NCBI GenBank assembly: GCA_023078555.1
Contig: CM041196.1
Span: forward strand, 5,281,658-5,345,657
Direction of reading: 5' to 3'
From: Ulva prolifera
Taxonomy: Eukaryota; Chlorophyta; Ulvophyceae; Ulvales; Ulvaceae
Length of the DNA stretch: 64,000 bases
Positions 15,711-52,957 of this stretch are shown here, piece by piece. A model generated the notes under the pieces. That model did no database searches. It was not told where the DNA came from and saw only the letters and a list, made by a program, of their open reading frames with translations. The stretch's first letter is position 1. Each line of letters begins with the position of its first letter. The position numbers and the translations under genes were made by a program.

Positions 15711-18403
15711 ATTCCTCGCTAGTGCGCTGGCCGAGGAGTGCGACTGCCCCATCTTTGTGCGCCCCCGCCCCCATGTTTACTATAGTCATGCTGTAGCAAT
15801 TGATTGTCCAAGCAGCCGATAACTCCAAATCATATTCATGTAGAAGCTCTTCTCTGCAGCTTGAAATGATCAATGACCCGGCCCCCTCTCTCTTGTGATT
15901 GTACAAAATCAGTGATATAACTGCCATAACACTGGACTTTTTTTTTTTTTGGGACTGTCACCCTCGTCCGCGTGACTGCCTTACCTACCGTGTATTGACG
16001 CATTTGAGCGTTTCACACACGAACGTGTTGCCATCTACCAGTCAAAAGTTTGTATAGAACGTGGTCACTGAGACAAGTTGAGACTACATGTTACTGTGAG
16101 CCTGTCACAATCCTGGACACATCGATAGTGAGAACGGCAGTTACTCTGCAGGTCATCAACGGCGCCGACATTGCAGCAGGCAGCTCCGCTGGCGACCGCC
16201 TGAACAAAACCGCCGCCGCTGCCGCTGCTGCGGCCCCATGCATTGTCTTCATTGACGAGATCGACGCCGCTGCCGCCAACCGCGCCACCACCTCCTCCGA
16301 CGAGGCCGCCGCCTCCGCGGCCCGCCTCCTCGCCTTCCTCGACACGCTGCGCCGCGGCGGCAGCGGCCGCGGTAATGGCGGCGCCGGCCCGGCGTCCGCC
16401 CCCGGGTCGGCCGCCATTTCCGTCATCGCGGCCACGAGTGCGCGTGTGCACCTCGACCCCGCCGTCTGCCGCCCCGGCCGCCTAGACACCGAGATTCTGA
16501 TCGGGCCGCCGACGACTGCAGAGCGGGAAGAACTCCTCTCAGTGTCCCTCGGCAAACTTCCCGGTGGCGCTGATGCGAACTTCGCGGACATCGCGCACTG
16601 CACGCCGGGGTTCACGGCATCCGACTGCTGCGCTGTGGCTACCGGTGCAGTCATGCATGCAGTCACGCGTGCTGTGGAGCAGGCCGAGGAGTGTGTGCTC
16701 GCTGCACTCGATGCGCCACAGCATGGAAACAGTCACGGAGGTGATGGCGAGCAGACAGCAAGTGGCTCGGGAGTCGTGCTCACGGATGATGAACTGATGG
16801 AGAAGGTTCGCATCACCGCAGACGACGTGGCGTGCGCGCTGCGTGACGTGGAGCCCAGCGCTCTGCGTGCTGTGGCTCCAGAGGTACCACGGCTCACGTG
16901 GGCGGACATCTCCGGCCTGAAAGATGTGAAGCAAACGCTACAGGAGCTCGTCGAGTGGCCTCTGCTGTACGGCGATCGTATGGAGCGTTACGGCCTCGCG
17001 CCGCCGAGTGGCGCGCTGCTGTACGGCCCCCCAGGATGCGGCAAGACCCTACTCGCGCGCGCTGCGGCGTCCTCGGTCGGAGCAAACTTCATCGCGGTGT
17101 CCGGGCCCGAGCTGCTCGACAAGTGGCTGGGGGGATCTGAGGCGCGTGTGCGCGAGGTATTTGCCGCGGCGCGTGCATCGGCGCCATGCATCGTGTTCTT
17201 TGATGAGGTGGATGCGCTGGCGACGCGGCGGGATGGCGGCGGAGGAGTCGGGGCGGCAGCTGGAAGCGGCGCCGAGGCGCGAGTGCTGGACCAGCTGCTG
17301 ACTGAGATGGACGGCGTGGGGGGGCGCAAGGGTGTGCTGGTGCTTGCAGCAACCAACAGGCCGGAGGCGATTGACCCCGCTCTGCTGCGGCCCGGCCGTG
17401 TGGACCATGTGTGCTTGGTGCGCTGCTCATGGCCATGCGTGTGCCGCATGCTGGAAGGTTCCTTTTTGTCTCGCTCTCCGGAATTTTCTTGTCTCGATTG
17501 TGTGCAAGCCTCTGTTGGTGTCACTCAGCAGGAGCAGATGTTGTGGGCGGTTGCAACACATGTCATTGCTTGTTCATCTGGTTTGCGGCCGTGGCTGTTG
17601 CCGGACGGCGCCTCGCTGCCGCCCACAGCTGCAGCATGCGCAGCATGTCCGTGTGCAATCGTCTGGCACAAGCTGCTTCTGTGTGAGCATGCATGCTCGC
17701 TTTTCGCCGGCGATGCTGACATCGAAGTCCGGTGCAGGTCGGTCTGCCAGATGCCGAGGCCCGCCTGGCAATGCTGGAGCGAAGCTTCCAGAAGGTTCAC
17801 CTTTCACCCGATGTCGACTTGGCCGCATATGCGGACGGCCTCGAGGGCGCGACGGGCGCCGACATCGCGCATGCATGCCGCGAAGCCCTCATGTGCCTCC
17901 TCCGCCGCGACCTCTCTCACAGCCGTGCAGTGCTCGGTTCCAGCATGCATGACCAGCATGCGTCATCCGCACCCGACGCGGCTGCTGAAGAAGATGATTT
18001 GCTGCTGACGGTGGAGGACATGGCGGCGACGGTCGTCCGTGCTCGGCGGTCTGTCAGCCCGGAAGAGGTCACACGCTTCGAGGGCATGCGTGACGCGTTG
18101 CTGAGCGGCTCCCTGCCACCGCAGCCTCCCCGCGCCGGTGGTGGTGCCGGTGAGCAGGTGGAGCAGCTGGCGAAGGCGATGCTGAAGGAGCGGGCGACGG
18201 CGCGCATCACGCAGCTGCAGGGGCTGCTGCGGGATGCTGCCGGTGTGATGCAGGCGCAGCAGGAGATGCTGCAGGCGAACGGTGTTGAGGAGGTGCAGGG
18301 TGGCAAGTGCGGGGAGGCTGGAGCTGTGTGGGACAAGGTGATGGCTGCAGTGGCTGCTCTGGGGGATGGGGAGGAGGTAGAGGGCGAGGCGCCAGCTGCA
18401 TAG
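14669..18403 (+). CDS. AFG2: Double-domain AAA ATPase of the AFG2/SPATA5 (CDC48-family) type
   Basis: Predicted hexameric protein unfoldase. Plant CIP111 and yeast Afg2 relatives act in 60S ribosome maturation. Exons are tentatively 14669-14970, then firmly 15429-15756, 16152-17417 and 17738-18403; all phases agree, giving 853 residues from the Met at 14669. D1 has Walker A GPPGTGKT (about residue 189) and Walker B IVFIDEID. The inter-domain segment DVEPSALRAVAPEVPRLTW and ISGLKDVKQTLQELVEWPL match AFG2-type D2 entry. D2 has GPPGCGKT (about residue 502), pore loop DKWLGGSEARVREVF, FFDEVD and ATNRPEAIDPALLRPGR. D1 has INGADIAAGSSAGDRLNK where the aromatic pore loop is expected. After D2 there is an extra helical tail of about 100 residues (EQLAKAMLKERATARITQLQ). 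The N-terminal exon is weakly supported and more 5' exons are possible. Confidence 0.82.
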
Positions 18404-32449: not shown

Positions 32450-35400
32450 TTAGAGCTCATCGCGGGGGGGGTCGACGTACTCGTCCGAATCGCCCTCCGT
32501 CGGCGCAGGCTTGCTGGCCTCGGCGGCCGCGTCCTGCATCCCCGCACATCAATCGAAAGAATAAACAAAAAAAAAATTAAGTTGCAGCTGACAGCAGGAG
32601 GGGGGTGTCTTCGTGCGCTGGCGGTCGATGAGGGGGGCTGTGCTGCGGTATGGCCAACAGTCCAGTGCAACTAACAAAGCAAAAGCCATGGCGCAAGAGT
32701 GGTCTTTGAAGGGTCATCGTGCCAAAACTGGTATAGGGCAGCTACTACAAAGACCTGATGCTCCCTGGCCCGGCGAGAGCGGCGTCGGCTGCACCGGCTG
32801 CACGTGCGGGCTTCCCACGCAGCAAGCGTCTGAAGCCCAGCACAGGACACCTCAACACAACGAACAAACCATAGGCACCCATATCATGCAGCTCAGGCCA
32901 CCGGGTGCTGAGCATCGACCACGCGGGCAGAAGTCATCCCGCTGGAGGCGACCGGCCGGTGCAGCAGCAAGCAGGTTGCGGCGCAGCAAGATGTGGAGCA
33001 GCAGGTGCACAGAGGGCAGCCAGGGGGGCAGTCGAGGCGCAACATCACAACAGACAGCAGGCGCATCGTCATCCTTTGTCCATTGTGGAACCTGGGGAAA
33101 AGCGTTTGGCTGGGTCTGAACGCCCCGAGCATCGAATCGGTTCTGTGCGTACATCCTACGCGACCGGCCTCGACCGTGCCTCAGCTGAATTGGAGGGACA
33201 GATGATGGGATAACTAACAGGACAGCACAGATGTATGCACAGCGGTGATGAGGGTGTTGAGAAGAGAGCGCCCGCACCTGCACCTTCTCGAACATCGCCT
33301 TCTCCGCCTCGGAGTTCTTGCCCCAGGTGTCCTGCGCGAACTGCATCGCCTCGTCCAGCGAGTCCGTGACCATGATGTTATCGAAGATGGACCCCGCCTT
33401 CACCTGCCACAGCTCAAAGGCCACGTACTTCAGGGGGGGCAGCTTGTAGAGCTCCGGATCGTCCACAAAGTCGGGGTTCGGAATCAGCGGCGCCGTCCAC
33501 ATCCCCTGCACCCACCCTGTGTTAATCTGGCTGTAGATCGTAGCCACACCAACAGTTGACATACAGCGGCGCCGTCCACATCCCCTGCACTCACCCGCCC
33601 GTCCGCTGGCTGTAGATGGTGGCCGCTCTGAGAGCAGTCATCCGGGGTGGTCTACCCTGAGCCCTGCGCTGTGGCGGACGTCCACACCGTTACCCGTAAC
33701 GAAAGGCACATTGCATGCATGCATACATGATGACGTGGCGCAATCTGCAGTCCAGTGGTCGCAGCACCACTTGGACGTTGCGATGTACAGGTGGGGTCCG
33801 GCAGTGCAGGGGCCATCACTGGGTTGCACCACCGACGCGCATGAGGCGGCAGAAACATGCCTTGTAGGCGGGGTTCTCGATGCGCCGTGGCCGCCACTCG
33901 CCGCGCCACTCCGGGTTCGTGATCTCCGGCGCCGACCACTCGCCGTCGTCGTCGTCGTCCCAGTCCGCGGGCTTCTTCGCCTCGGGGTCGGGCACCGTCT
34001 TCGGCACATCATCCCAGTCCGCGGGCTTCTTGTCCTCGGGGTCGTCGATCATCGGGTTGTCGTCCCAGTCCTCGGGCTTCTTCGCCTTGGGGTCCTGCAG
34101 CGGTGCCACACCTGTGTGTTGCGGAGTGCATCGGTGCAGCGCAGGAGAGCAGCGGGGTTCCACACACCCAGTATCTCACACAATGGCATGCAACCATGCC
34201 ATTTGTACCGCTGAGTCGCACCGTGGGATGCGGTGGACTTAGGAAGCTGCGTTGTGCAGCGATGCCGAGGCAGGCACGCAGTATATCCACACTACAGGAT
34301 CTCTTGAAGTCCATGCTGTACAGTTGGCCTGCTATGTAAACACATAGTAGTACAGTGGCAGTCGAGCTTTGCAGGATACACGTCTGTGCAGGCTACACGT
34401 CTGCGCAGCTCGACGACAATGTAGTCGAGCTGCGCAGCAGCGGCGTGCATTGATCTGAAGCAAGATGTGGACATGCAGAGCAGACAACACGCACGCAGCT
34501 ACCAGGCGATGCGTTATTTTGATGCGCATGTGCTCGGCACTATGCTGAGTGGCTGGAGCCTGTCGGGTGGTGCGCTGGAGGCATCGTGTGCAAGCAGGTG
34601 GGGGCGACGGCGGCGTACCGAGATCTGCTTCGGTGGGAGCATGTTCCAGTCCTCGTGCAGAGTGCCCTTGCGGCGGGACTCTGTGTCAACAAACACCTGC
34701 ACCCACCGCCTCTTGCACCGGATCCAGTGACACCAGCACAAGTGCCGTGTACTGTGGCTCACAGGCCACTTACATCCCACACCAGCCCCAGACCACAGCC
34801 ACGGAATTCGCGTGGCTGCAACATGCCTGATCAGAAGTTACATTGCCTGCGAAAATTGCATGTCACCCAGGAGTGTTCTCAAGCCAACCTGTGCCTTGAG
34901 TTAGTAGCATTCGGGTGGGTCAAACGGGCGACATTGTGCTGACAACAGCTGCAGGATGCAGATGCCCAGAGGAAGGATGCTGCTGGAGGAACGAGCGGGG
35001 AGCAGCACCTCGAACGATGCATCGGAGCGGATGACGAGGGTGTAGACGTGCGAGAGCTGGTCGGTCTCGGCGGTGATGGGCGACTTGAGCTCGTGGTTCT
35101 CACCCTTGTAGTTGATGATGACATGTACCTTGCGGGTCATGCTGCCACAGATGTCCGGCCCAAACATGATGGAGTAAGGTGTATCCCCGGAGAAGGCCTT
35201 CATCTCCTCCTCCCTGCATTTTTAGGGAACCTGGTGAAATTGGGATTCGCTGAACGGGACTGTCGGATGAGTGATTCTGGCATCAGGGCGGGCATCATGC
35301 TGTGTGATCAACACACGTACGGGAGAATGGTGTGTTCTGATCAAGGCGACTGGGCGTCTTATAGATGCGCAGGTGGTCATGCTGAGGCAGGAACCCCGTC

Positions 35401-37009: not shown

Positions 37010-40000
37010 CTATATTCTTCTCCGCCCCCGCATACGCGCCACAAGGTCGCGGCTCCCGCCTGACTCCGGGGTGTGCAGGCTGCGCATATACATCGCACGC
37101 TCATCCGTCACCGGTGTGCGCCCCTCAGCCACCATCGCCTGCGTGCTCACAATGAACCCCGCCGGCACGCCCTCCTCGCTCCCAAACTCCTCATCGTCCT
37201 CGTCATCGTCCCCGTCCGCCTCGGCGCAGTCGTCCACAAACACGCACCCCCGCAGCCGTGCGCGCGCGCGCGGCGGCGGCGCCTCGGCGGGGCGGCGGCG
37301 GCCGCGTTGCCGGGCGGCTGCGAGCGGAGCGGAGTCCGTGCTCGCCGGCGTCGCGGAGGCGGGGGTGTGCCGGGGTGCGATGGAGGCGCTCCGCGGCTGC
37401 CCAGAGAATTCAGCAATGCTGATCGACCGAGATTCATCTTCCCCCTGACTGCCTGCATATGCGCCACCACTGCAGGCTCATCCTCAAGCCGGCTAGCATG
37501 CCGGCGCATGCGTGCATGTCGGGGAAAACAAGCGAAGCGATGGCGATCTGTGCGTTGATAGAAGCAAAGAACTTGTTCCACTGCCAGTGCACGTACCGGT
37601 CAGGTCCTCGACAGCCGCCTCCTCCCCGCGGTCGCTATCAGAGTCATCCAGGCACTGCCGCTTGGGCCGGGGCCGACCACGGGCCCGCGGCGCCTCCCCA
37701 TGGCCCAGCTCATCATCCGACGAGTCATGCAGCATCTCCCTCTGCTTCACTAGTTCATGCTCCTGTGTCACCTTGCTAGGGGCTGTTAGCAGTCCCGCCG
37801 CAAGCAGCGGCGACTGGTCCGGGGAGTCGTCCAGCGTCATGTCAATCGCGTCTCCGCTCCCGCCTCCTCCCCCGCCCGCAGCGCTGGGGTGGCCCTTGCC
37901 GTCGCTGCTGCGGGTCACGCCACTGCGCCGCAGCGTGGCCGCACACCACGGCTTCACGTCTGAGCCGTGCACCGCAGCGTGTGCTAGGGCGCTCGTGACG
38001 ACTGGCGTCCCGCCGTGCGCCACGTCATCGGTGGATGTGCTGCTGCGGCCGCCGGGTGCGGCCAGCGGTGCCGCGAGACCCGGCACCGGCACTACAGTAC
38101 CCCCCGCGTTCGCCGCTGCGCCATTGCGTGCGATGTGGCTCGACAGCGCGCATGCAGGCTGCTGCATCGCCAGCCCGGACGGCCGTGCCGGTGTTACGCG
38201 GCCGCACAGCCCAGCAATGCCTGCATCCAATGCAACCCTAGCGACAGGGGCGCACAAAGGGCTGTCCGGACCAGCCGAAACAGACGCAGGCACTTCAGGC
38301 CGGGCGGAGCCAATGCCTAGCTCAAGCCCGGCATGATCAGGGGCGACTGTAGGCCCCGGATGGTCCAGAGGAGCCGCTGCGGTCGGCTGGACGGGGGACA
38401 TGGCGAAGATGTCCGGAACACGGCACGGGCGCGCGGGGTCGGGGGCGGAGCGTGCGGGGGCGGCTGCGCCAGATTCGCTGAGGCGCTGCACTGGCGCCGC
38501 GGCGAGGGGCTGTGTCGGGGCCGCACGGAACGTCACCGGCGTCGGTGCCGCAAATAGCGGCTGTGCACAGGGGGCCGGGGTTGGCTGTGTCGGAGAGCCA
38601 TCGCCGTCGTCCGGCGTGTCCGGGATGCAGTCAGACCCCATGACCCCCGGGAACGATCCGCCGGCAACCACCTCCTGCAACGCAGGGCTGCACGGGGACC
38701 CACGCCCCACGGCGAACCCTTGTGCGCCAAAGGTGGGTGGACAGGCGGGCAGCTTGGCAGAACCATGGGGGCCATGCATGCTGTGGGAGCCCATGCTCGG
38801 GTGCGCCGCCTTAAGAGTTGGAGAGCAGGCGTTCGGGGGTGCGGCGGCAGCCATGCAGGGAGAGGGCTCTGGTATTGCGGCTGGGGCTTCACTGCAGTGT
38901 GCATGTGGCTCATGCATACGCACATCAGGGCCCAGGTAGCCTCGCTCCTCGCCTGGTGCCTCCGAGTCCAGTCCGACCGGCAGGCATTCAATCTCACACG
39001 TCTCTGGGATCACGTCGCCGATAGTCGAAGGCATGACTGGGACACAGTGAGCTGTGGCCACATGTATGGGCGTGTAAGCGGCGGCAGCCGATCGGTTCGG
39101 CGCCAGATCTGGAGGGTCGTGCGAGACAACTTCTGGTTGCACGCCAGCCGGAGCATCAGCGGCGCAGGGCACACCGCTGCTGGGCATGCATGTCTCGGGG
39201 ACCACTCTTGTGTAGGGTGGATGCGGCAGTGGAGACAAGACAGCATCGATACCAGGCCCCGCACCGCTGAGTCGGCTCGCTTGGACCGGCGTGCAACCTT
39301 CAGGAGCCTGCATGCTGCAGGAGTCATGGGCGACACGCCCTCTCTGCTGCGTGGCATGCGCCGCTGCTGTGCTGTGTTGCTGGTCCGCTGCTTCCGGCGG
39401 TGGACTGCTGCAGCGCTCGGGCCCGCTGTGAGAACCGCGTACAGGTGCTGACTGTGCGGGTGCAGCACCGGTGGAGGGCGTAGGCGGGCGCAGACTGTCC
39501 ACAGCGCACAGAGCACCCCCCCAGGCGCCACTGCCGGGACACGCCTGCACGTCAGGCTCCATGACAGTGCCTGCGGCGTCTGCGATTGCAGGTGGGGTGT
39601 CCGAGGCTGCTGGTGAACCTGGGTGCGGCACGGCATCTGTGCCGGGAGGGGACGCTGTGGGTGGCGAGATGGTTGCCGGGGCGCCGGTGGTGTCGGTGGC
39701 AGCGGGAGCCGCCTTGAGGCGCTGTGCCCACGCCCGCCGCCACGCCCCTGTCTCCGCCTGCGGCCGCGCCGTAGCCTTGCGGCTCCGCAGCGGCGCGTCG
39801 TCCTCCTCCTCGTCCTCCATCTGCCGCCTCTTCACGCCCACACGCATGAGCCCCATGCGTTTTGGAGCAGCTGCAGGCTCCGCTGAGCACGCCTGTCGCA
39901 TCGGCTCCGCGGTAGCTTGCGGGTGGGCCACTGCAGACACGGGCTGCTGTGGCTGTGGTGCGGTGGGGGTGGCTGGCGTGACTCCGCCGCTGCCACCCGA

Positions 40001-43000
40001 CGGCAGAGCCACAGCAGCTTCAGCAGAAGGCAGTATGTGTTCAGCATCCAGAGGCGCCGACCGTGCTTCTGCTGCATCACCCGGCAAAGTCCGGGAGCCT
40101 ACGCACGCATCATTGGGCGCACGAGCAGCACCAGCATGCTCCTCATGCATCTGCTGCGCCGCAGCAGTTTCTGCTCCTGCCCCCGGGCCTGAGCTTGTGG
40201 GTGGCCCAACAGAGGCAAGCCCTGCCCCGACGGGCTCATGCATCTGATGCGCAGGCTGCCGACCAGCAACCTCCGCATGTTGGACCGCGACCGGAGCTGC
40301 TCCAGCATCGGTGCCATGGGGCTCACCGCTGCCCCCTGCAGCACCTGGTGTTCCCCCATTGCAGACACCCAAGCTCGCCGCAGCGGCCGTGTCCGCCGCC
40401 GCCGTCCCGCCTTCATCGCTTTTGAGCCTGACACGCACAAACGGCACCTCAGCGGCATGCGCAGCAGCACCCGCGGCCTGCGCAACGGCCACACCACATG
40501 CACCGCTCGACGGGCCTGCGTCAACAGCAGGGGCGGAGAACGCCGCTGCTGGGAGCTGCTCAAGAACCGCGGCAGGCAGCATGGCCTGCGCCAGCGCGGC
40601 GATCGGGTCGTCCGACTCGACCGCAGCCGCGACGTCCTCAGCGCGCACTGGAATGCTCTCCCATGCTGTGCACGCTGCGATCGCCTGGTGCGCAGCACGC
40701 AGCGCGCAAGGGTACGCCTGCCGTGCGGGGACTGCTCCAGGGTCCTGAACGCGGGCCGCACCGACCGCTGTGTCTGCTGCCCCACTGGTTGCGCCGGCGC
40801 CGCGCCCCGCCGTGTGAAGCACATTGCCAGCGTCCGCAGGGGGCCCAGCTGTCGCCGCTGCGCTGCATGCTGCCACTGGGAGCCGGGCAGCCAGCGGGAT
40901 GTCCTCCTCAGCGAGTGCTCCGGCTGGCGCCCCGGCATCGGCGGCGCCCGCCCCGCCCATGTCCCCGTCCGGTGGCGTGTCACCGTCAACCTCAATCGGC
41001 TTCTCCGCCGTTCCGGCATCAGCAGCTGTAGTGAATGAGCGGGGAGCCTTGCGGCAGCCGTAGCGCATGCATGTCTGCTGGTACAGCGCACGCCAAGCCA
41101 GGGGCAGCTCGTCCAGCCACGGCCGCGACAGGGCATACTCAACTGCCCGCTTCCCTGACGGTGTGAACTTGTATTTGCGCGGCTTACGCGTGCGTGGCGC
41201 AGGCACGGAGGCTACAGGCTGGGTGGCAACTTCGTCCTCGATTTCGATTGCCGGGGCCGGCGGTGCATGCATGGGTGTCCGTGCGGCTGTGGCCCCCGGC
41301 TCGATGGCCGCTGCCGGAGCGCTGGTGGAGGGAGGCACCAGCAGCCTGTCTGCAGCATGTCCTGTGGACTGCTGTGCTACAGCCTCGGTGACCAGGACTG
41401 GCGGCGCAGACACCCGTTGTGCGTAGAGCGTGCTGTGTGCTGTGGCCGCTGTGAGATGAGGGGTCGCAGCTGGCCCGACGCGTGGCTCCGCGGAGTTGGC
41501 GAGGCAGGCTGACTTGGCGCGCACGCGCTCCGCGAGAGACAGTGTGGCTGCTGCGGAGGTGTGGCCAGCGAGATCGCATGACCGGGGTGCGGATTCCAGC
41601 TGTGGCGTAGGTGCCACATGTGGCGTTGAGCCTGCCTGTGGCGGCTCTGCAGCAGAACCAGCATGTAAACGTATGCATGGGATGCTGTGACATACATCTG
41701 GTTGAGCATGGGTCACAATCTACTCTTACACTCCTTGCATTTGTTGCAGTCGTACCCGAGCCGTCCGAACAAATGAGAGGCCGCAAGTCAACCACGCATG
41801 CATGCCACCCATGCATGTGAGCACAACGGTCAAAACACGCGAGGACAGTAAATCGATTACATGGCGACTCAGACTAACTACAGCGACCCTAACTCCACTC
41901 TTAATGCAATACACTGCACAATCATTGAGAAAGAAAAGGCGCACCAGCTGCGCCGTATGCATGCAACCCGCTACCAAGACCATCCCCAGCCTCAACAGCG
42001 AGGCGAGCCGGCACCGACACAGACCCTGCCTGCGTAGTGCAGCCCCCACCTGTGGCTCTAACGGCAGGCTGCTGCTCCGTTGCAGCATGCGCAGGCGCTG
42101 CCCCCACCCCTGCGCTGGCGCCACGCCCCACGGCAGCATGCCGCGCCTCCACGGCACCCCCCCTCTGCAGATAGTCGTCCCACATCGACCTGGTGCCTTC
42201 GCAGTCCTCGGCAGCGGCGCCGCCGGCGCCCGGAGCCGCGGTGTCTGCCGCGGCGGCAGCGGGCTCGTCCCCCGTCCGCCGGCTGACGATCCGCTCCATG
42301 ATCGACTTGTGCGAGCGCGTGCGGTCACGCTTCGGCAGCGCGGTGCCGTTCATAACATCGAGGGCGACGCTGCGGGCCTCGCGGATCATATCACAGCGCT
42401 CCCGGACCCCTGGGTCTAGCAGTCGTTCGTCAAGCACCGACGCGAAGTGCTGCTGCCGCATCACCGGCGCAAAGTCCACCGGCAGGATCGTGCTGCGGCC
42501 GCAGAGCTTGAAGTTGATGGCCGCGTCCCGCAGCTGCGCCTGGAGCTGCGTCCGCTTCTGCATACCATACCGCGCCGATCACTCAGTGCAGATCACAGCA
42601 GGTTGCCGGGTCAATTCAGTGATACACAGCCACGCTGGCACAAGCCATGGCTTCTGTAGTCGACTCCTTCGCATGGACGATGATTCATGCACGCGTCCAC
42701 CACTCCAGGGACTTCCCGAAGATTCATGACCACTACCAAGGCAGGCTGCCCTCGCCTGTAGCTGCTAGACACACGGCGAGCTTTCGGGAGCCTGTTGGTG
42801 TGTGCATGCTAAAGCATGAGTACTCCAGTGCACACGTGGACAACGCCTCTGCGCAACAGGGCTGCGGCTGTGCTCATCCATGCATTGGCCAGCCCGTATC
42901 ACTCACACGCAGGCAGCAGAGCTCACAGCCAAGACCACAGACGCGGAGCCTCGAGCCGCACCGCCTCCGCCTGAGTGAACTTGCGCTCCTCGCCGCCCTT

Positions 43001-46000
43001 GGCGAGGATGTGCACGACGCTGCCGGCGCGGTGGCGGCCCATGCGGCCGGTGCGCTGCACGCCGCGTGTCGGGCTCGAGCTGACATCGAGGCACACCACC
43101 AGGTCCACCTCTGGGATGTCCAGACCCTCCTCCCCGATGCACGTCGCCACGAGCGTGTTGACCTTGAGGTCGCGGAAGGCCTGCAGCACCGCCTTCTGCT
43201 CCTTCTGCGTCATCTTGGACTTCTTGTCCTTCGTGCCGCCCTGCCCCACGAACTTCCTGCACTGCGTGCGGTCCGTCTCACCATGGGCCGCTCTGCCACA
43301 GTCGTTGTTGGGGCGCTGTGTCAGAGAGATGACCCAACGATGCGGGAGCACCTCCACAGGCGTCGGCGGTGAGTCGAGCCTCGTGCAAAAGACGTGACTC
43401 ACGTGACGTGAGCGATGATGCAGGTGTGTGAGGAACAAGCAGGTGGTCTGTCGGAGGTTTGTGTGCCCATGGGAGTCTGTATATGGTGTCCAACGACTGT
43501 TGCCGGTCGACGACGGAGCATCTGCATGGTATGCTTCATTGGGCCTGCCCCACATTCAGCACATCGGAGAAGTGCAAGTTATTCAATTCACGACCAGACT
43601 TGCAAAATGCCTAAATTCCAAAATCGGCAACTGCCCAGGTAGCCAAGCGGCCCTGGCATCCCCAGCAGAGTCGCATCAGTGTTACTCGGCGTTCCTGACA
43701 AATTCACTCTGAGCAGAGACCGCGGTGAGTACGGCTGCGCAAGCCTCGGTGCTCAAGCGAGACGCCGTTGCCAGGGGCAGGCCCATGAGCGTACCTGGCA
43801 ATGACGACGTTGCCCTCCATGGCGTTCAGGGCTGTGCACATCTGCTCTGCTCCTTCCTTCAGGCTCGTGAACACCATCGCGCGAGTCGTCTGGCCCTGGG
43901 CTTTCATCTTCTTGAAGTGTGCCCTCAGCACCCTCTGGACCTGCTGCAGTTTCGGGTCGTCCGCTCCTGCGTCTGTCAGAAGCCTGAGGTCATCCCGGAC
44001 CTGCAGCAGCACATCGTGGTCCAAGCCCACACCGGAGTCCAGTTGTGCACATGGGCTGCAGTGTTCTGAGAGGCAGGCGCAGCAACATGCAACATGAATC
44101 CAGGACCTACTGTAGAAAATAAATGGGTGTAGGGTACACCATCTCGATGCATGATCACCATCAACCATGCAACATGCCCGCGACGCCCATTTTGGCTGTG
44201 CCGGCAGGAGCTCGGCATGCACTGGGGCGTCCCCTGCGCGTGTTGATGTGCTCACATGCACATCGGGAAAATCCAAAATCAGCCGGTCCCTGCCCATGCA
44301 CCAAATAGAGTGCTCTAGCAGGTCTGCATGCAACACTTGTAGCACAGACATCACTCATCTTGCACCCGGGCTGCAACAGTAGAAGTGACATAGAGACAGG
44401 CGATGAAAACAGGGGACCCAGTCTCGGAGCTCTACCCCACAGCAGCTAGGGACACGCACCTCACAGAGGTTAGGGAACATGGCGTCCAGGGCTTTGACGT
44501 CTTCCTCGGGATGGTGGCTCTCCCAGTGCCTGAAGCCCGCGGTGGCGCCCGTGCAGCTGAGTTTATTCATCAGCTCAGCAATGAAGCACGCCTGGCTCCG
44601 CACAGCCCAGAGAGCTTTTGTGCTCCTGCACTGACCGGCCTCGTTGAATCAGGCGTCCCTGTTGTGCTGCAGTTCCACAACATCTGCGGATTTGGGACAG
44701 GTATCGCTCCATGGCACATTGCATGTCGACGGCAGACCACGTTGTGGCCTGCCATGCTGTCGTGGTGTGGCCAGAAACATAGGGGCCGCAACAGACGACG
44801 AGCAGCACATGCATCTTGTTATGCCTTTGTGATGACACGTACATGCATACATATTCACAGGAAGATGCTATGTCCCTGGCTCAGCATGCGCAGGGTCAGG
44901 ACCCGCGCCTGCACAGTCAGCTGGTCAGGCATGCACCCAGGAGCTCGAGCCATCGCGCATTGCGCACCAGGCATCACAATGGCCACCAGCAACACGTACG
45001 TTCTACACAGACAGCAGGAGGACATATGCTACCGCCTCGAAACACACCTGGCACCAGCAGACGTTCGCGATCTGTACTGATTGGTGATCGTGAACGCCGA
45101 GGTGGTTGAAGTCGTGGTGTCGATAAGCCCTGCCCGTTCGAGGCGGGACAGCAGCTCGTTCTGAACCACCTTCAGCGCATCCTCGCAGCGCTGCACCGCG
45201 CCGGTGGACTCGACCACGATCCGCTCGCACACCCGCCCGTGGCGGTATTTCTTGACCTCGGGGTCCTCCTCTCCGAAAAACATGACCCGGGAGGCGCGCA
45301 CGTTCGAGATGACCTCCTGGATCTTCTCGCAATCGGAGCCGGGGGTCGCAGAGAGGCCGATGATGCGGAGCGCGGACGCACGGCGCGCGTAGATGCTGCG
45401 GATGGCACACACGATCGCCGCATCGCCGGTCGCCTTGTGGCATTCGTCCACCACGAGGCACACGAGGCGCTCTGCAGGGCACAGCTCCTTCGCGAGGTCG
45501 TTCTGCAGAACCTGCATGTACTGGGCTTGTTCAGGGGCCATCAATCGGCAGGAATGTTTTAGCAGCCCCTGCAAAGGTCGGACGTAGGGCCTGCCTCCGA
45601 GCCTGCATGTGGCTTCGACCCGTAGCGTTTACATTGTTCTTCTCAGTTGGACCCCAATTCAGAGATGAGGGCAAATCAAATGGAAGTGGACGAATGACAC
45701 TGCGCATGTGCACGTGTCTGAAGGACCGCCTCAGTGGCTCTGTCGATAGCCCTGCTGGGTCGTTCACTCAAACAGAGATGAAGAGCTACAAGGTGCCTGT
45801 GTTGATCGGACTGCACAGCCGTTGATGTTGCAGCACAGCTGTTGATATTGCTGCATGACAGTGAAACGGACGACACGTACTGCTCTACTGCAAGACCAAG
45901 CAGCTGAGCTTGCGGGGCAGCAGTCCACGTGGAAGGAATATGGTGTACATGATACAGGTGTGAACAGTTGCCAGCAATGCACAGGCACATCAAGGCCAGC

Positions 46001-49000
46001 GATGTGCCATCGCCCATCGACCAAATATGGCAAGGCGCCTGTTGCTGTACTGTATCGTTGCACTGAGCTGACAAGGCATGCAGCGACAGCCAGTGGGTGA
46101 CCTGTACCTGAGCAGTGCAGAAGAACACAGTCTTCTTTTCCCACAGTTCTCTCCGGGCCGCTGGCTTCATTGATTGCCCAGTCATTACCTCCACGCGGTC
46201 CTCTGGGATGCAGAGAGTCTGAAGGCAGGCCTGGCGCTGCTGCTCGACCAGCGGCCGTGTCGGCGCCACAAACACGACCTTACCCTTCGGAAACCACCTG
46301 CACAAGTATTCGAGCTTGATGGAGAGCAATTTACTGATGCAGTGCGCTTTAATACAATATGGTATTGACAGTATAGACACGCCCTTGGCCATGCAAGGGA
46401 GGCGACGTTCAAGCACGGATACTGTCAGCGGAGATGCGGCTACGCCGCACGTGCTTGGCCTCATACCCGTCTGGTCCTCCCCATTGCAAATGAGGACTAA
46501 TCCAACATCTACGTTCACAAACATGATGCCACCGAAAAGCCCTGTCAGAGACCCTCAGTGGCTGGCACAAGTAATCCTTGCCACAAACCTCTCTCAGGAA
46601 GAATCACAGGCTACCGTCACACAACGGCGGGCGCATGTTTGGTGTTGAGGGAAGGGCTGGAGGCGGACGGGTCACACCTGATGAAGTTGAACATGATCAC
46701 AGCAGCTATCAACGTCTTCCCGAGCCCAGTGGGCAGAGCAATCAATGTGTTCTCAAACAGCCCAGCCTCTGTCATTTTGACTTGATACTCACGAACTTCC
46801 TTGTTTGTGGGGTACGCCCAGTACGTCAGCTCCTCTGCGCTACCGAACGGCACTGCAGCGTTGCCGGAAACAAGAACAGGCGGGACCTCATGTGTTCCAC
46901 GAACGCCCTGCAGCTCTGGCGTGCTGCCCGCCCTGGCTAGCGAGACAGTTCCAGCTGATCCAGCTTCAGGATGGCCATCTGATGCTGCGGTCCCAGCAGC
47001 CTGTGAAAACGGCAGCGTGGCTTGAAGAAGGGGTTTTGATGGCGCCGCGGACGGGAGAGATCGGGATGTGGAGGCATATACAGCATGGGTGGTCGACGGA
47101 GCATCGACACCTTGGCCTGGTGCTTTGACCGGAAGCATGCGCTGCATCCCAGGCTGCTCGGACCTGTGATGCGATGGCGGTGCAGTTTGTGGTCGTACCG
47201 CAGGCTGGGCATTCAGTTGCGGCCTGGCAGGCATTTGCTGAGGCTGCTTTGGCCGCGGCTGGTTCCATGGCTGGCTGGCCTGAGGTGGATGTGTGGGCAG
47301 CTGTGATTGTGGCGCCCATGGCCTCGGCCCGGGCTGGTGTTGAGCTGCATGCATCTGTGAAGCTGGATCTGGCTGCTGCTGGCCTTGGTGAATCGGTCGC
47401 CAGGATGGGGCAGGCTGCTGGGGTTGAGGAAGCTGCTGGCCTAGACAATGTTGAGGGCGTGGCTGCTGAAGGCCTGGCTGCTGAAGACCGGACTGCTGTG
47501 GGGGCAGCTGCTGTGCAGGGGCCGGTTGATGCGGAGGTTGATGCACCTGCGGCTGTTGCGGGCGCGGCTGATGGCCGGGCGGTTGCTGTGGGCTTGGCTG
47601 TTGTGTTGGAGTTTGCTGCGGGCGCAGCTGCTGTGCAGGGGTCAGCGGATATGGAGATTGATGCACCTGCGGCTGATGGCCAGGTGGCTGCTGTGGGCGT
47701 AGCTGTGGAGCAGAGGTCCGCTGAGGGCGTGGCTGTTGTGCGAATGGCTGCTGCGGGAACTGCTGCTGAGCACCTGCCTGCTGCAGGCGAGGCAGTGAAG
47801 TAGATGGTCGATGCAGGTGTGGCCGCTGTTCAGGGCACTGCTGCTGACCCTGCGGGCGTGGCTGGTAGCTAGTCAACTGTTGAGGACGTGGCTGCTGTGG
47901 TGCGCTTTGCTGAGGGCGTAGCAATTGCGTAAAAGCCTGCTGCGGGCGAGGTTGCTGGGTCATCGGTTGTTGAGGTCCTGACGACTGCATTGAGGATTGC
48001 TGGGGGAGCAGCTGAGCAGCAGCTGCGTGTTGCGGGCGTGGCTGCTGAGCTTGGGTCTGCTGTGGTTGTTGCTGCACTACAGCCGCATGCTGTGGGCGCG
48101 ATTGATGGAATTGCGGCTGTTGCGGGCGTGGCTGATGAGTGGCGGTCTGGTGTGGGCGTTGCTGCTGAACGGTCAATTGCTGGGGGGTTCGCTGCTGAAC
48201 ATTCAAGTGCTGCGGTCGAAGCTGATGTTCACTCTGCTGTTGAGGGCTTGGCTGCTGCGTGCAGACCTGCTGTGGCAGTGGCAGCTGGGCATGTGCCTGT
48301 TGCTGGCGCGGCTGCTGAGCAGGTGCCTTTTGTGGGCGCGGCTGATGAACTTGTGGCTGTGGCAGCGACTGTGGCTGCTTCATTGTTTGTCGACTTGGCT
48401 GAGGACCCTGTGTAACTGAGATATACGGCTGTGTTGGCTGCTGCCATGACTCCTGCGCTTGTGGAGCCGGATTGTGAGGAAATCGTTGGTTCTGATAGGA
48501 GGACAGATGTGTCGGGACCAGGTTCTGGCGACCTTGTTGCATGAAAGGAGGATTGCCAGCGACCGAGTCAGTTGGTGCAGTTGGATGCTGCTGCCGATAC
48601 GCGCCACACTGAGCTGTCGTTGGTCTTGCAGGGACAGCTTTCGCCTGAGTCTGCTGATTATGGGGCAATGGCTGCCAGAACGGCTGCTGCTGTTGCATCG
48701 ACCCAGCCGCAGTTGCTGGAACACTGCATCCAAACCTGGGCCCGGTGACACCAGGCGGTCCACATGAGGATCCTGCAGTGAATTGAATTGTAATTGGAGA
48801 TTCAGAAAGGTTGCCAGTGTTGATGAGAACAGGGGCACTTGTGTGAGAACGCACCTGACACACGAGAATGTGGCATCTGGAAATGCCCGGGACCAGTGGC
48901 ATTGAAAACATGGCTGGCCGAGTCAGGCTGCATTGGCCGGGGATGGAAAGCAGGGTTCCATGCAGCATGCGAAAGGTGGCCTTGACACACAGCATTCTGC

Positions 49001-49533
49001 TGGAAGTTTGCGACAACCTGGGGTGAGATACCAGACTTCGTTGCAGGACCCGCTGTGTGTGGCATGAATAGTCTCGCATTTGCGATACGGCCATTTTCTG
49101 TAGAGGGATTCGTGGGGTGGGTGCTGGACGGCTGCAGCACTTGCTTTTGCACAGCCGGATCCGAGATGGACGCTGGCATCACGGACGTACCAGTCTGAGC
49201 AGTCGGACCCGCTGGTCTGCAATCATCATGTCGCGATGCTACGCTAGAAATCATCTGGTTTCCTCCGCCCCGTTGAGAATATTGCTGCATCTGTGCGTCC
49301 CTTTGAGGTGCTCCTTTGTGCATGCTAACACTGCCACAGGTTTGAACGCCGTCTGCTGCTAATCCTGCCGCAGCGACCGCTGGACCGCTTGGATTATGAT
49401 TAGACGGAGCATTGATTTGGAATTTGGCAGCGACTTGAGGTTGACATGCCTCAGGTGGGAGATGCCGCGGGCCTTGCTGTGCATTTGCGATGCGCGAACC
49501 AGAGTTTTCTTTGCTTGAACCATCCCTAAACAT
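37010..49533 (-). CDS. FANCM: FANCM-type DNA translocase (MPH1/FANCM DEAH-family helicase), very large
   Basis: Predicted ATP-dependent branch-point translocase acting at stalled forks and limiting crossovers. Ten exons chain without a phase break: 49533-48855, 48772-46678, 46297-46108, 45511-45078, 44625-44460, 44000-43795, 43256-42962, 42557-41981, 41646-37597, 37452-37010, totalling 3,044 residues. Residues 1 to about 870 are Gln/Pro-rich with imperfect QQPRPQQ-like repeats. The helicase starts at YWAYPTNKEVREYQ. Motif I is LPTGLGKT (about 906), then WFPKGKVVFVAPTRPLVEQQ. Motif II is VVDECHKA (DECH rather than DEAH), motif III LSATPGSD. Later come TRAMVFTSLKEG, GEEGLDIPEVDLVVCLD and motif VI VQRTGRMGR. 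Exon 9 encodes 1,350 residues, Ala/Pro-rich. Exon 10 ends with an acidic stretch, GFIVST and DERAMYMRSLHTPE, resembling the conserved FANCM C-terminal motif. No ERCC4 nuclease-like domain is visible. Most known FANCM proteins are 1,300-2,050 residues. Confidence 0.9.
46900..48700. repeat. Imperfect CAG/CTG-rich coding repeats of the FANCM N-terminus
   Basis: Plus-strand pattern of GCTGCTGTGG/GCTGTTGWGG with interruptions, encoding Gln-Gln-Pro-Arg-Pro-type units on the minus strand. Long Leu/Ala/Val-rich frames on the plus strand here are complementary shadows. Repeat boundaries are approximate. Confidence 0.7.
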
Positions 49534-50728
49534 CTCTCAAATCAGAGCATTTCCCAATGCCAAACTGTCGAGGAGAAACGTTCTTCGCTGCTTCGGCAGT
49601 ATCCGAAGAGCGATGGAGACTTTCGGTCACAACCGCGGCACACAGACCCACTCCAAGTGCCTGTGGGCAAATAGACTCAGCGTAATATGATAGAGCATCG
49701 CTAGAGTACAAATGTGTGGTGATTTTGGCCAAGCTCGACTGCATATCTGGCTTCAATTTGCGGAATCATGGCATTCATGTGCTGTCCCTTGTGCTGTCCA
49801 GAGCAACACGATTGCATAGCACGAACATAAGAATCACATAACACGTCTGCGGCATGACATTCGGCTGCTACGTGCTCTTAGCCGCAATGTTGGTTTTCTT
49901 GGCGTTGACATTTGCGGCCCGTGAACTGTGCGGTGACCAGCTTCGATATCACGCGACATTTTCGCACCCCTTTGAGTGGTAGTGATGCGATGTAACAACA
50001 CGAAATGCTCGCATGAGTACTTGCCGTACATGCAGAAGGCTCAAGCAAGCGCGACAGGACATTGCATCGGTATACCGGATCTGTGTTGTGCGGTTGCACG
50101 GCGACCTGCTGTTTAGACGAGTTCACGCCTTCACATACGACACCGCAACTTAAGCATCGTAATGAGTCGTGCTCGTCGTGGTACCTACTGTCTCACGGTC
50201 TAAATGATGTCTCGAGTCGCTGTTTCGATGTTGTGGCTGGCAATGGCATTTTGATTGAATATGGAGGGGCACCCGATGCCACGCCAACCACTCGCGAAAC
50301 TTCCCGTCAATCGCTGATGATGTGTCAAGTTCTTCTGTCTGCCCCGGCAGTGTTCCTGGGATGCGGCATGCTGGCCGTAATTGCCCGCATTTCTAAGCCG
50401 TTCGCAAACAGAGTCAATCCCTCAAGCAGTGGTGCGCTGATGTCCCTGATGCTCCTATGTTGAGCGGAGAGCAGACATCCATCTGTTCGATAAAATGACG
50501 CGCTGGACTCCAGGCTAAGCCTTCACATGCCGGGTGTAGGGTGAGGTTCACGGGGAGTTCGTCCGCAGTGTGACAGACATGCCGAGCAAATCTGTGCGGG
50601 CAGCATGTCAATTCTGTGTGTAGCTCAGATGCAGGTCTTTATTCAGTGACAAGCGAATACATTGAAGCTTCGAGCTTGTTCAGGTTGGCAGATGTCATTG
50701 GCACATGTCCTGAAAGAAACACATCAGC
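49534..50728. promoter_or_regulatory. Intergenic region of a divergent pair (FANCM / coiled-coil gene)
   Basis: About 1.2 kb between the start codons of FANCM (minus) and the coiled-coil gene (plus). Frames inside it (50062-50463) have no domain. Both promoters should lie here; no specific element is identified. Confidence 0.35.
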
Positions 50729-52957
50729 ATGTTGAAATCATGGTCACCTTCGAATGCAGGAAGCGGTATGACTACATCTACTTGCAACACCCAGTCAGAC
50801 CACCTTGTGTTTATGCCGAGCGGAGCGTCCAGCATGGATCTAACAGAAGCATCGGTCTCAAGAGATCTCACACTCTGCTCCTCCCCAAGTCCTGTACAAA
50901 GTGAAACTCGGTGTCTCCAAGGTTCTGCTGACTCATCCCCGTCCAGCCCGCCCAGTGATGAAACTGCTTCATGCATTGCCGCAGATAGACCTGATACAAT
51001 CAGCGAACCTTCAAATTGCAAGCTCTACAAAACTGCACAAAGCATGCCTGGGTCCCTATCGACCACTTCTCCAACCTCTCCGACGTCTGCCATGAAAGTG
51101 AATCCAGATAGTCCTTCCAGCACCTCATCCTCAGTGCTGGGCAGCGCTGAGCAGCAGGAGAGCCCACGTGGGCAAAGCTCTGATTGTCACTCGACAGCTT
51201 CCTCAGAAAAACCGCAACAACTGCCGAGTCAATGCGTAGGGCAGCTTCAGTCAGATTTGGGTGAGGATCTGGCGGCAAGACTGAAAGACAAGCAAAATTT
51301 ATGTCAGGTTCTGGCGATACAGGATCCAGCCGCCACCGTGCACACTCACCATCCGGGTATGTATGAATAAAAAAGCTTCTTGAAGCACATGTGCTTGCAT
51401 CTTCACCTGTCAGGGCGCCTGTACTATCACATCTGGAGGCCTGCTCTGCATCGGCGCATTGACTGGTTGTTCTTGTCTGCAGCTGCGTGTGCTGTTGATG
51501 ATGGGCCTGTCGAAGGCGGGGCAGTGGCCCACGGCCCAAGAGGCCCTGCCAGGAAAGAAGCACGAGACCGTGCGGACACAATTCATCAGGATGGCACCTG
51601 GGCGCTCAAGCAGGATCAGGAACGTGGCGCAACACAATTGAGGCAGGAAATATCAGACCTTGCTGCACAAGTGCAGATGCTTGTGGGCATGCTTCTTGAT
51701 GCCAGGAGCAGGGAAGCGGACCTGGAACAGGCCCAACGGGAGTGCATCGCAGAGGTGACTGCTGTCAAAGAGAGCATCCGTGTCGAGTCTGAAATCTGCA
51801 GCACAGCCGTAGAGCAGGTCCTCCTCTGAAACATTCATCAGTACAGTGTCTGCATTCCGCCTGTTGTGCAGTAGATGGTCTGCAGCAGGTTGAAACGGGA
51901 CTGGGTGCAGGTACTGCAAGCTCGAGGTAGAGATCACAAAGAACAAAAAGCCCAGTGTTCATCAGGCTCAGGCCAAGATGCAGCGAACGGTCCTGCAGCC
52001 TGCAGTAACAGCGTCTGTGTATCCGAGCAACAGCAGAAGTTGGACATCTGCACCAGCCTCGCCTGCCGCATAGAATACACACCAAACAAGCCGGACAGAT
52101 CGTCTCAAGGCGCGAGCCAGGAATCGCAGTGCCTGTGCTCCCGCATAGCTGTGCTGGAGGCTGAGGCCACTGCTCAGCGCCTCGCAGCAGAGGCTGCATG
52201 GCGCTCCAACTCAGCTCTCAGCCGCAGGCTGTCTGAATTGCTTGGATCGCCACCTTGCAGTGCCATTGACGACCACCTGGTGCACTCCCCACCTGTCAGG
52301 GCACATCTGTCGCAGAGCGACTGGCGCTCCACAGCGCTGGGCTCTGTGGGCAACGCAGAGGCAGACGAGAGGCTCCTTGGAAACACCTGTAGTGATGTCA
52401 CCCACCTGGTTGCCACATCTGGTCAATTCTCATCTGCAGCTGTAGCAGTTTGTGATCGCAGGAGACCTGCTGGATCACCAGGCTGCAGCGTGCGAAGTTG
52501 CCAGACGCCTCGAGAGCTTTCAGGCCAGCCGCAACCTCACCGCGGGCTGTCTGGAGCGCCGCAGGTGCCAGCGAGTGGTCCCTGTCAGCAACTCTATGGC
52601 CTGACAACACCTCCACTTCAGAGAGTCGCTGGTCTACTGGTTCAGGATTCGCAGGTTGGAGGGCATGGGCGGGCAGCAGGGCGATCGACGCCATCGGGCT
52701 GCTTGCGACGAGCTGCGACAGATCCACTGGCAGGTCACAGGTCACCCAGCTTTCGGCAATCACAAAGGCTGCCTCCTGCGTTGCAGTGCCTGCCTGCACA
52801 CATGCATCGATATGCTCCACCGAGCATCCTCGCTGAGCTTGCGCCAGTTGCCTCTCCCGTCAGTGCTGGTCCGGATGCACGCTTGACTCAGCAGGCTGGG
52901 ATGTACCTTGCCGAGAGGTCTTGTCCAAGGCTGTATGCGGTGTGCCCGCTGTTGTAG
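50729..52957 (+). CDS. Coiled-coil protein of unknown function
   Basis: Six exons (50729-51356, 51483-51817, 51911-52421, 52462-52564, 52655-52733, 52787-52957) join with matching phases (1, 0, 1, 2, 0) to 1,827 nt, or 608 residues. The first 220 residues are Ser/Thr/Pro-rich and probably disordered (SSPSSPPSDETASC, TTSPTSPTSAMKVNPDSPSS). Heptad-like charged helices follow: TQLRQEISDLAAQVQMLVGM with READLEQAQRECIAEV, then RIAVLEAEATAQRLAAEAAW and NSALSRRLSELL, then ACEVARRLESFQASRNLTAG and RAACDELRQIHWQ. There is no signal peptide, membrane segment or catalytic motif. Such organisation is common in structural or scaffold proteins, but I do not assign a family. The phase-consistent chain is the main support. 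The start at 50729 is the first ATG in the frame. Confidence 0.62.

Follow-up and report, generated by a model that had tools for sequence, protein, structure and literature searches.

Human FANCM carries ERCC4-like and HhH domains at its C-terminus, which plant and fungal members do not need. At the other end, its DEAD/DEAH domain is placed at amino acids 77-590 in the passages drawn on here, so that 76 residues precede the helicase (PMC6743340). Glutamine-rich sequence is also on record for this family. In the part of the source used here, Tetrahymena FANCM is listed among the proteins with several SCDs, polyQ and/or polyQ/N tracts, and Q-rich motifs are described as raising the steady-state level of yeast proteins, a "nanny" function (PMC10942620). 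A Q-rich FANCM can therefore not be claimed as new for the family. Among the literature matches listed, all of them open-licence papers, there was neither an N-terminal extension of FANCM in algae, nor a decapeptide array on FANCM of the kind described below.

The FANCM gene of the green alga Ulva prolifera lies on the minus strand of the window (the whole 64,000-nucleotide stretch of contig CM041196.1 that was analysed), from position 49533 to 37010. Its ten-exon model is in phase, has GT..AG borders at the introns and encodes 2,976 residues. The parts of the gene, in window positions, are:

48855..49533, minus strand: exon 1, residues 1-226, polar with a mild Gln/Pro richness; based on its open frame, GT donor and codon-table scores
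46678..48772, minus strand: exon 2, a single uninterrupted exon that carries the remaining extension and, after it, the helicase start with motif I (LPTGLGKT)
42962..46823, minus strand: SF2 translocase, residues 877 to about 1355, in exons 2-7
46297-46108, 45511-45048, 44595-44460, 44000-43795 and 43256-42962, minus strand: the translocase exons after exon 2
37010..42557, minus strand: C-terminal part, with exons 42557-42050, 41646-37597 and the last exon, mostly Ala-rich and of low complexity
ending at 37010, minus strand: last exon, with an uncertain acceptor at 37317, 37437, 37452 or 37476

The helicase starts with YWAYPTNKEVREYQ at residue 877. Its identification as FANCM, already made in a preliminary description of this DNA, is supported by the in-phase model and by comparison with the PDB, where the best match was FANCM (9el5, E 2.4e-99), followed by the archaeal 1wp9 (E 9.2e-61). 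With 9el5, the algal helicase has its two ATPase lobes in common, as well as the start YPTN..VR.YQ and the motif LPTGLGKT, and 1wp9, a putative ATP-dependent RNA helicase by its PDB title and presumably the Hef helicase, shares the SF2 core. The Pfam families DEAD, ResIII and Helicase_C were all matched in the translocase core. Searching the whole genome (88.9 Mb, 44 contigs) with the exon-4 protein at E <= 0.001 retrieved one match and, judged by this search, FANCM is a single-copy gene. Two contigs of this genome bear exons of the RuBisCO small subunit, in keeping with a photosynthetic organism.

After the helicase, the protein continues with about 1,450 further low-complexity residues, and the exon at 41646-37597 (minus strand) encodes about 1,350 Ala-rich ones. 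Unlike human FANCM with its ERCC4-like/HhH C-terminus, the algal protein gave no Pfam match to ERCC4 or HhH in scans of residues 877-1480, the exon-9 frame and the last exon, and the 1,383-residue frame of exon 9 contained no family at E <= 0.1. Residues 1430-2875 have a net charge of -43, opposite in sign to that of the N-terminal arm. Three short stretches in the C-terminal exon, VVPETCMPSS, DVIPETCEIE and DCIPDTPDDG, resemble one another and may be copies of a docking motif. In the last exon (37317-37010, minus strand), an acidic stretch with a sub-threshold Spt5_N match (E 0.0056, 18.1 bits, cut-off 24.2) is followed by GFIVSTQAMVAEGRTPVTDERAMYMRSL, which we take to resemble the C-termini of FANCM proteins from plants.

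Among the pathway partners, FANCD2 had a match in the genome (E 3.6e-7; controls 0 of 14). For MHF, the genome gave no match to the CENP-S family (control matched in 2 of 14, both archaea) or the CENP-X family (0 of 14), and FANCM-MHF_bd matched neither in residues 877-1480 nor in the genome (0 of 14 controls). This non-detection of the MHF1/MHF2 families is no demonstration of their absence. Elsewhere in the window, a Calreticulin-family exon lies downstream of FANCM (32855-33637, minus strand; Pfam Calreticulin E 2.6e-7), and the gene seems to have further exons as far back as about 36000. An AAA-family ATPase with two AAA stretches is found at 16008-18005 (plus strand). Adjoining FANCM and divergent from it are two open frames at 50714-52954 (plus strand; 50714-51367 and 51875-52954), both without a Pfam match at E <= 0.001.

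The first two exons (49533-48855 and 48772-46678) join in phase over a GT..AG intron and are stop-free from MFRDGSSKENSG into the helicase, with an in-frame TGA two codons upstream of the proposed ATG. The preliminary description had noticed this long open extension and given its length as 870 residues; the extension is borne out, and its measured length is 876 residues, including 181 Gln and 148 Pro. Exon 1 contributes 226 residues and one split codon, exon 2 the other 649 residues, and no Pfam family was matched in the extension at E <= 0.1. The exon-2 part meets no stop before the helicase and shares one exon with it, and thus it is not a separate gene in this frame; as read from the sequence, the common frame of these 649 residues and the helicase is solid. 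Among 1000 phase-free Markov sequences with matching composition at each of the orders 1, 2 and 5, all 876 codons were open in none at any order, the exon-2 part alone in 1, 3 and 5, and exon 1 alone in 19, 29 and 55, respectively. The stop-freedom of exon 1 on its own is not compelling.

The case for exon 1 as part of FANCM is good but not certain, and it draws on codon usage. Its frame was the best of six with the codon table of exon 2 (-12 versus -103 to -187 bits) and with that of the C-terminal part (-22 versus -79 to -110 bits), and the third of six with the helicase codons (-103, two other frames reaching -55 and -95), all scores being below zero, i.e. worse than plain base composition. 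An unspliced start in the frame of exon 2, which is open up to 49178, was rejected, as it scored -39.7 bits over the overlap versus -8.1 bits for the spliced start. An internal duplication in exon 1 is suggestive only: among 500 shuffles, 6 reached its protein score of 73 and the highest scored 86, and its DNA score of 26 lies below the shuffled maximum of 34.

Within the exon-2 part lies a degenerate tandem array of decapeptides:

47832..48371, minus strand: 18 decapeptide units, residues 361-540, in an unbroken 10-residue register with the consensus PRPQQxxxQQ
47433..47792, minus strand: up to 8 further units, residues 554-673, in a shifted register; 3 of the 8 above the 95% shuffle level

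By position, the 18 units read P-R-P-Q-Q-x-x-x-Q/H-Q. Across the tract, Arg shows autocorrelations of 5.6, 5.7 and 4.7 at lags 10, 20 and 30, and Gln recurs at multiples of five residues. A profile built from the 18 units placed 15 of these training units above the 95% shuffle level (9.5), which, together with the three outer candidates that exceeded it, leads us to count 18 units in the array and at most 8 others beside them. Residues 361-540 were chosen since the motif anchors there sit in register, and every unit inside was counted; the units are therefore unselected only inside this stretch.

The codon positions of the 18 units differ in their variability. Mean pairwise differences are 0.364, 0.418 and 0.624 at positions 1, 2 and 3, a ratio of 1.6 between the third and the first two (bootstrap 1.42-1.82; label permutation within codons, P 0.001). 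In the Pro and Gln columns, each kept in 17 of 18 units, the first base never differs among pairs, whereas the third base differs in 0.75 and 0.58 of pairs, respectively. This third-position excess suggests that the array peptide is probably translated and kept at the protein level. With greedy non-overlapping pairs from the whole extension, a procedure which favours the youngest and least diverged unit pairs, the third position was the most variable in 12 of 12 settings and significantly so in one (P 0.008; others P 0.14-0.51). Transitions and transversions were 5:4 in CA? codons versus 7:4 at fourfold sites, with no difference (P 1.0, few events). In the C-terminal part, the third-position excess of the greedy-pair test was non-significant in all six settings. 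The all-pairs repeat statistics rest on 459 overlapping, non-independent pairs and were not counted as proof.

An origin of the tract by CAG/CTG expansion, as put forward in the preliminary description, can be rejected on its make-up. The longest (CAG)n is 9 nt, i.e. three CAGs, the longest Gln run is 4 residues and the repeated unit has 10 codons; Gln is encoded by both its codons (126 CAG to 55 CAA) and Pro by all four.

Gln richness of this degree stands out in the part of the genome that was sampled. With a Gln share of 0.198, the frame of the tract ranks first among 89 stop-free frames of at least 250 codons (next 0.108) in a sample of the window, 20 stretches of 10 kb from the same genome, all on contig C1, and one 3.3-kb locus, the part outside the window amounting to about 0.23% of the genome. 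Outside the window, none of the 21 loci had an open stretch of 150 codons with at least 18% Gln; inside it there are 47 overlapping ones, the richest in this tract. A dispersed repeat or transposon was rejected, as the tract protein retrieved from the genome (E to 0.001) itself and one weak match (C5:665868, E 1.5e-4), which contains two stops. The motif QQP[R/S]PQ occurs seven times in the tract among the 34 genome matches listed (reversed control 4), and the remaining 27 listed include no pair closer together than 30 kb. Given this clustering and the lack of another good tract match, the array looks unique in the genome at that search sensitivity. No relatives were found in virus and prokaryote contig collections, as expected from their content. 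A stretch of C1 (L019, C1:3950001-3960000) carries several long open frames on one strand with repeated peptides, for example STRTLHTDS, and is probably a long tandem satellite.

Synonymous GC per 100 codons is 0.41-0.56 before the helicase and 0.73-0.91 within it, and the first three introns have a GC of 0.45-0.54. In an amino acid by amino acid comparison with the helicase, the Mantel-Haenszel chi2 is 69 for the tract and 72 for exon 1, while exon 1 is indistinguishable from the tract (1.3); the C-terminal part takes an intermediate place (19 versus the helicase, 40 versus the tract). The likeness of exon 1 and the tract suggests that the arm seems to share one history, without codon preference. 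Its synonymous GC, which is similar to that of the neighbouring introns and much lower than in the helicase, is consistent with a later addition or with a weaker constraint on codon choice. The switch near the helicase border is sharp (49533-46824, minus strand), and it could be used as a criterion for recognising late additions to other proteins encoded in this genome. Residues 331-790 have a net charge of +27, and the charge-hydropathy score of residues 228-790 is on the disordered side (-0.248). The same score is a poor guide here, since it also puts exon 1 (0.023), residues 791-876 (0.218) and the Ala-rich part at the C-terminus (0.142) on the ordered side.

We propose, with a probability of about 0.5, that this FANCM has a translated arm of about 876 residues with a maintained decapeptide core and a flexible docking or tethering role. 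The role itself, in which many copies would act together with a flexible chain, is what we infer from these features. An old 30-bp minisatellite would have arisen before an earlier FANCM N-terminus and yielded the array, and a PIP-like motif may still mark this earlier end:

47001..47024, minus strand: QATLPFSQ, residues 810-817, 67 residues before the helicase; putative degenerate PIP-like motif, tentative

The resulting arm would be long, flexible and positively charged and would offer 18 to 26 weak docking sites. At stalled forks it would tether the translocase either to a partner or to the DNA, leaving the ATPase unchanged. A relaxed PIP pattern had no match in the extension, and QATLPFSQ is possibly a PIP-box remnant, by a weak, post hoc match which leans on the human sequence. 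The passages drawn on here describe a PIP-box, termed non-canonical, at amino acids 5-12 of human FANCM, ahead of the helicase from amino acid 77 (PMC6743340, PMC6116012). If QATLPFSQ were a remnant of such a human-type PIP-box, the array would have been added before the ancestral N-terminus. The more far-reaching proposal, that 18 to 26 PRPQQxxxQQ copies, kept by selection and observed here in a single algal FANCM gene, form a multivalent recruitment arm of a new kind for a translocase that remodels forks, placed before an ancestral PCNA-binding N-terminus, appears rather unlikely to us.

Tolerated drift, by which a disordered N-terminus permitted the growth of a 30-bp minisatellite and carries it without any specific job, would sit well with the long low-complexity sequence after the helicase of the same protein, with the background level of synonymous GC in the arm, with the weak result for non-overlapping pairs and with the transition test. 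Free drift would not be expected to leave P, R and Q fixed next to near-saturated synonymous change, with no register slip over 180 residues, and similar Gln richness was absent from the 21 other sampled loci. We consider drift a rather unlikely explanation.

A short FANCM would begin at Met769 or Met772, about 105 residues before the helicase, the upstream frame being untranslated or belonging to another product. The start of the human helicase at amino acid 77 (PMC6743340) is in line with such a protein, and the 266 nt ahead of the proposed start contain six ATGs. What renders a short protein improbable is the codon-position signature of the array, which points to translation in this frame, along with the uninterrupted run from tract to helicase and the preference of two of three codon tables for the exon 1 frame.

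Ser, Thr and Gln make up 34% of the extension (297/876), yet only 13 S/T-Q dipeptides occur versus 24.0 expected from composition, the opposite of an enrichment in ATR targets. By the formal definition of SQ/TQ cluster domains (SCDs; at least 3 S/T-Q per 100 residues), parts of the extension would qualify, for example with 340, 347 and 398, in spite of this shortfall. By analogy with the "nanny" activity, to which STQ content has been linked in the part of the source used (PMC10942620), a Q-rich start might raise the steady-state level of FANCM; the scarcity of S/T-Q and the strict 10-residue register, unneeded in such a leader, make this quite improbable. A putative condensate module, as suggested in the preliminary description, would drive phase separation at damaged forks. 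A long sequence of low complexity with many Arg-containing copies would suit it, but the core has 2.4% aromatic residues, 0.7% Asn and 21% Pro, and few aromatics with much Pro speak against the common condensate types; we regard this reading as highly improbable.

Fork-remodelling helicases have been studied mostly in animals, fungi and land plants. If the algal arm docks FANCM to a partner, it would be a testable candidate for a difference from these, and a counted, register-locked motif is easily shortened or deleted. Cereal prolamins also consist of Q/P-rich tandem repeats with short Pro/Gln units. Their unit is not PRPQQxxxQQ, and the algal array is attached to a DNA translocase. Compared on its solved 494-residue chain alone, 1wp9 shares the helicase core but has no such extension. 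Tetrahymena FANCM is alike in bearing Q-rich motifs; it differs in coming from a ciliate, which reads TAA/TAG as Gln and whose group has proteins rich in Q-motifs, and in that its description, in the part used here, mentions no decapeptide array (PMC10942620). Human FANCM has 76 residues before its helicase, whereas the protein of Ulva prolifera has 876.
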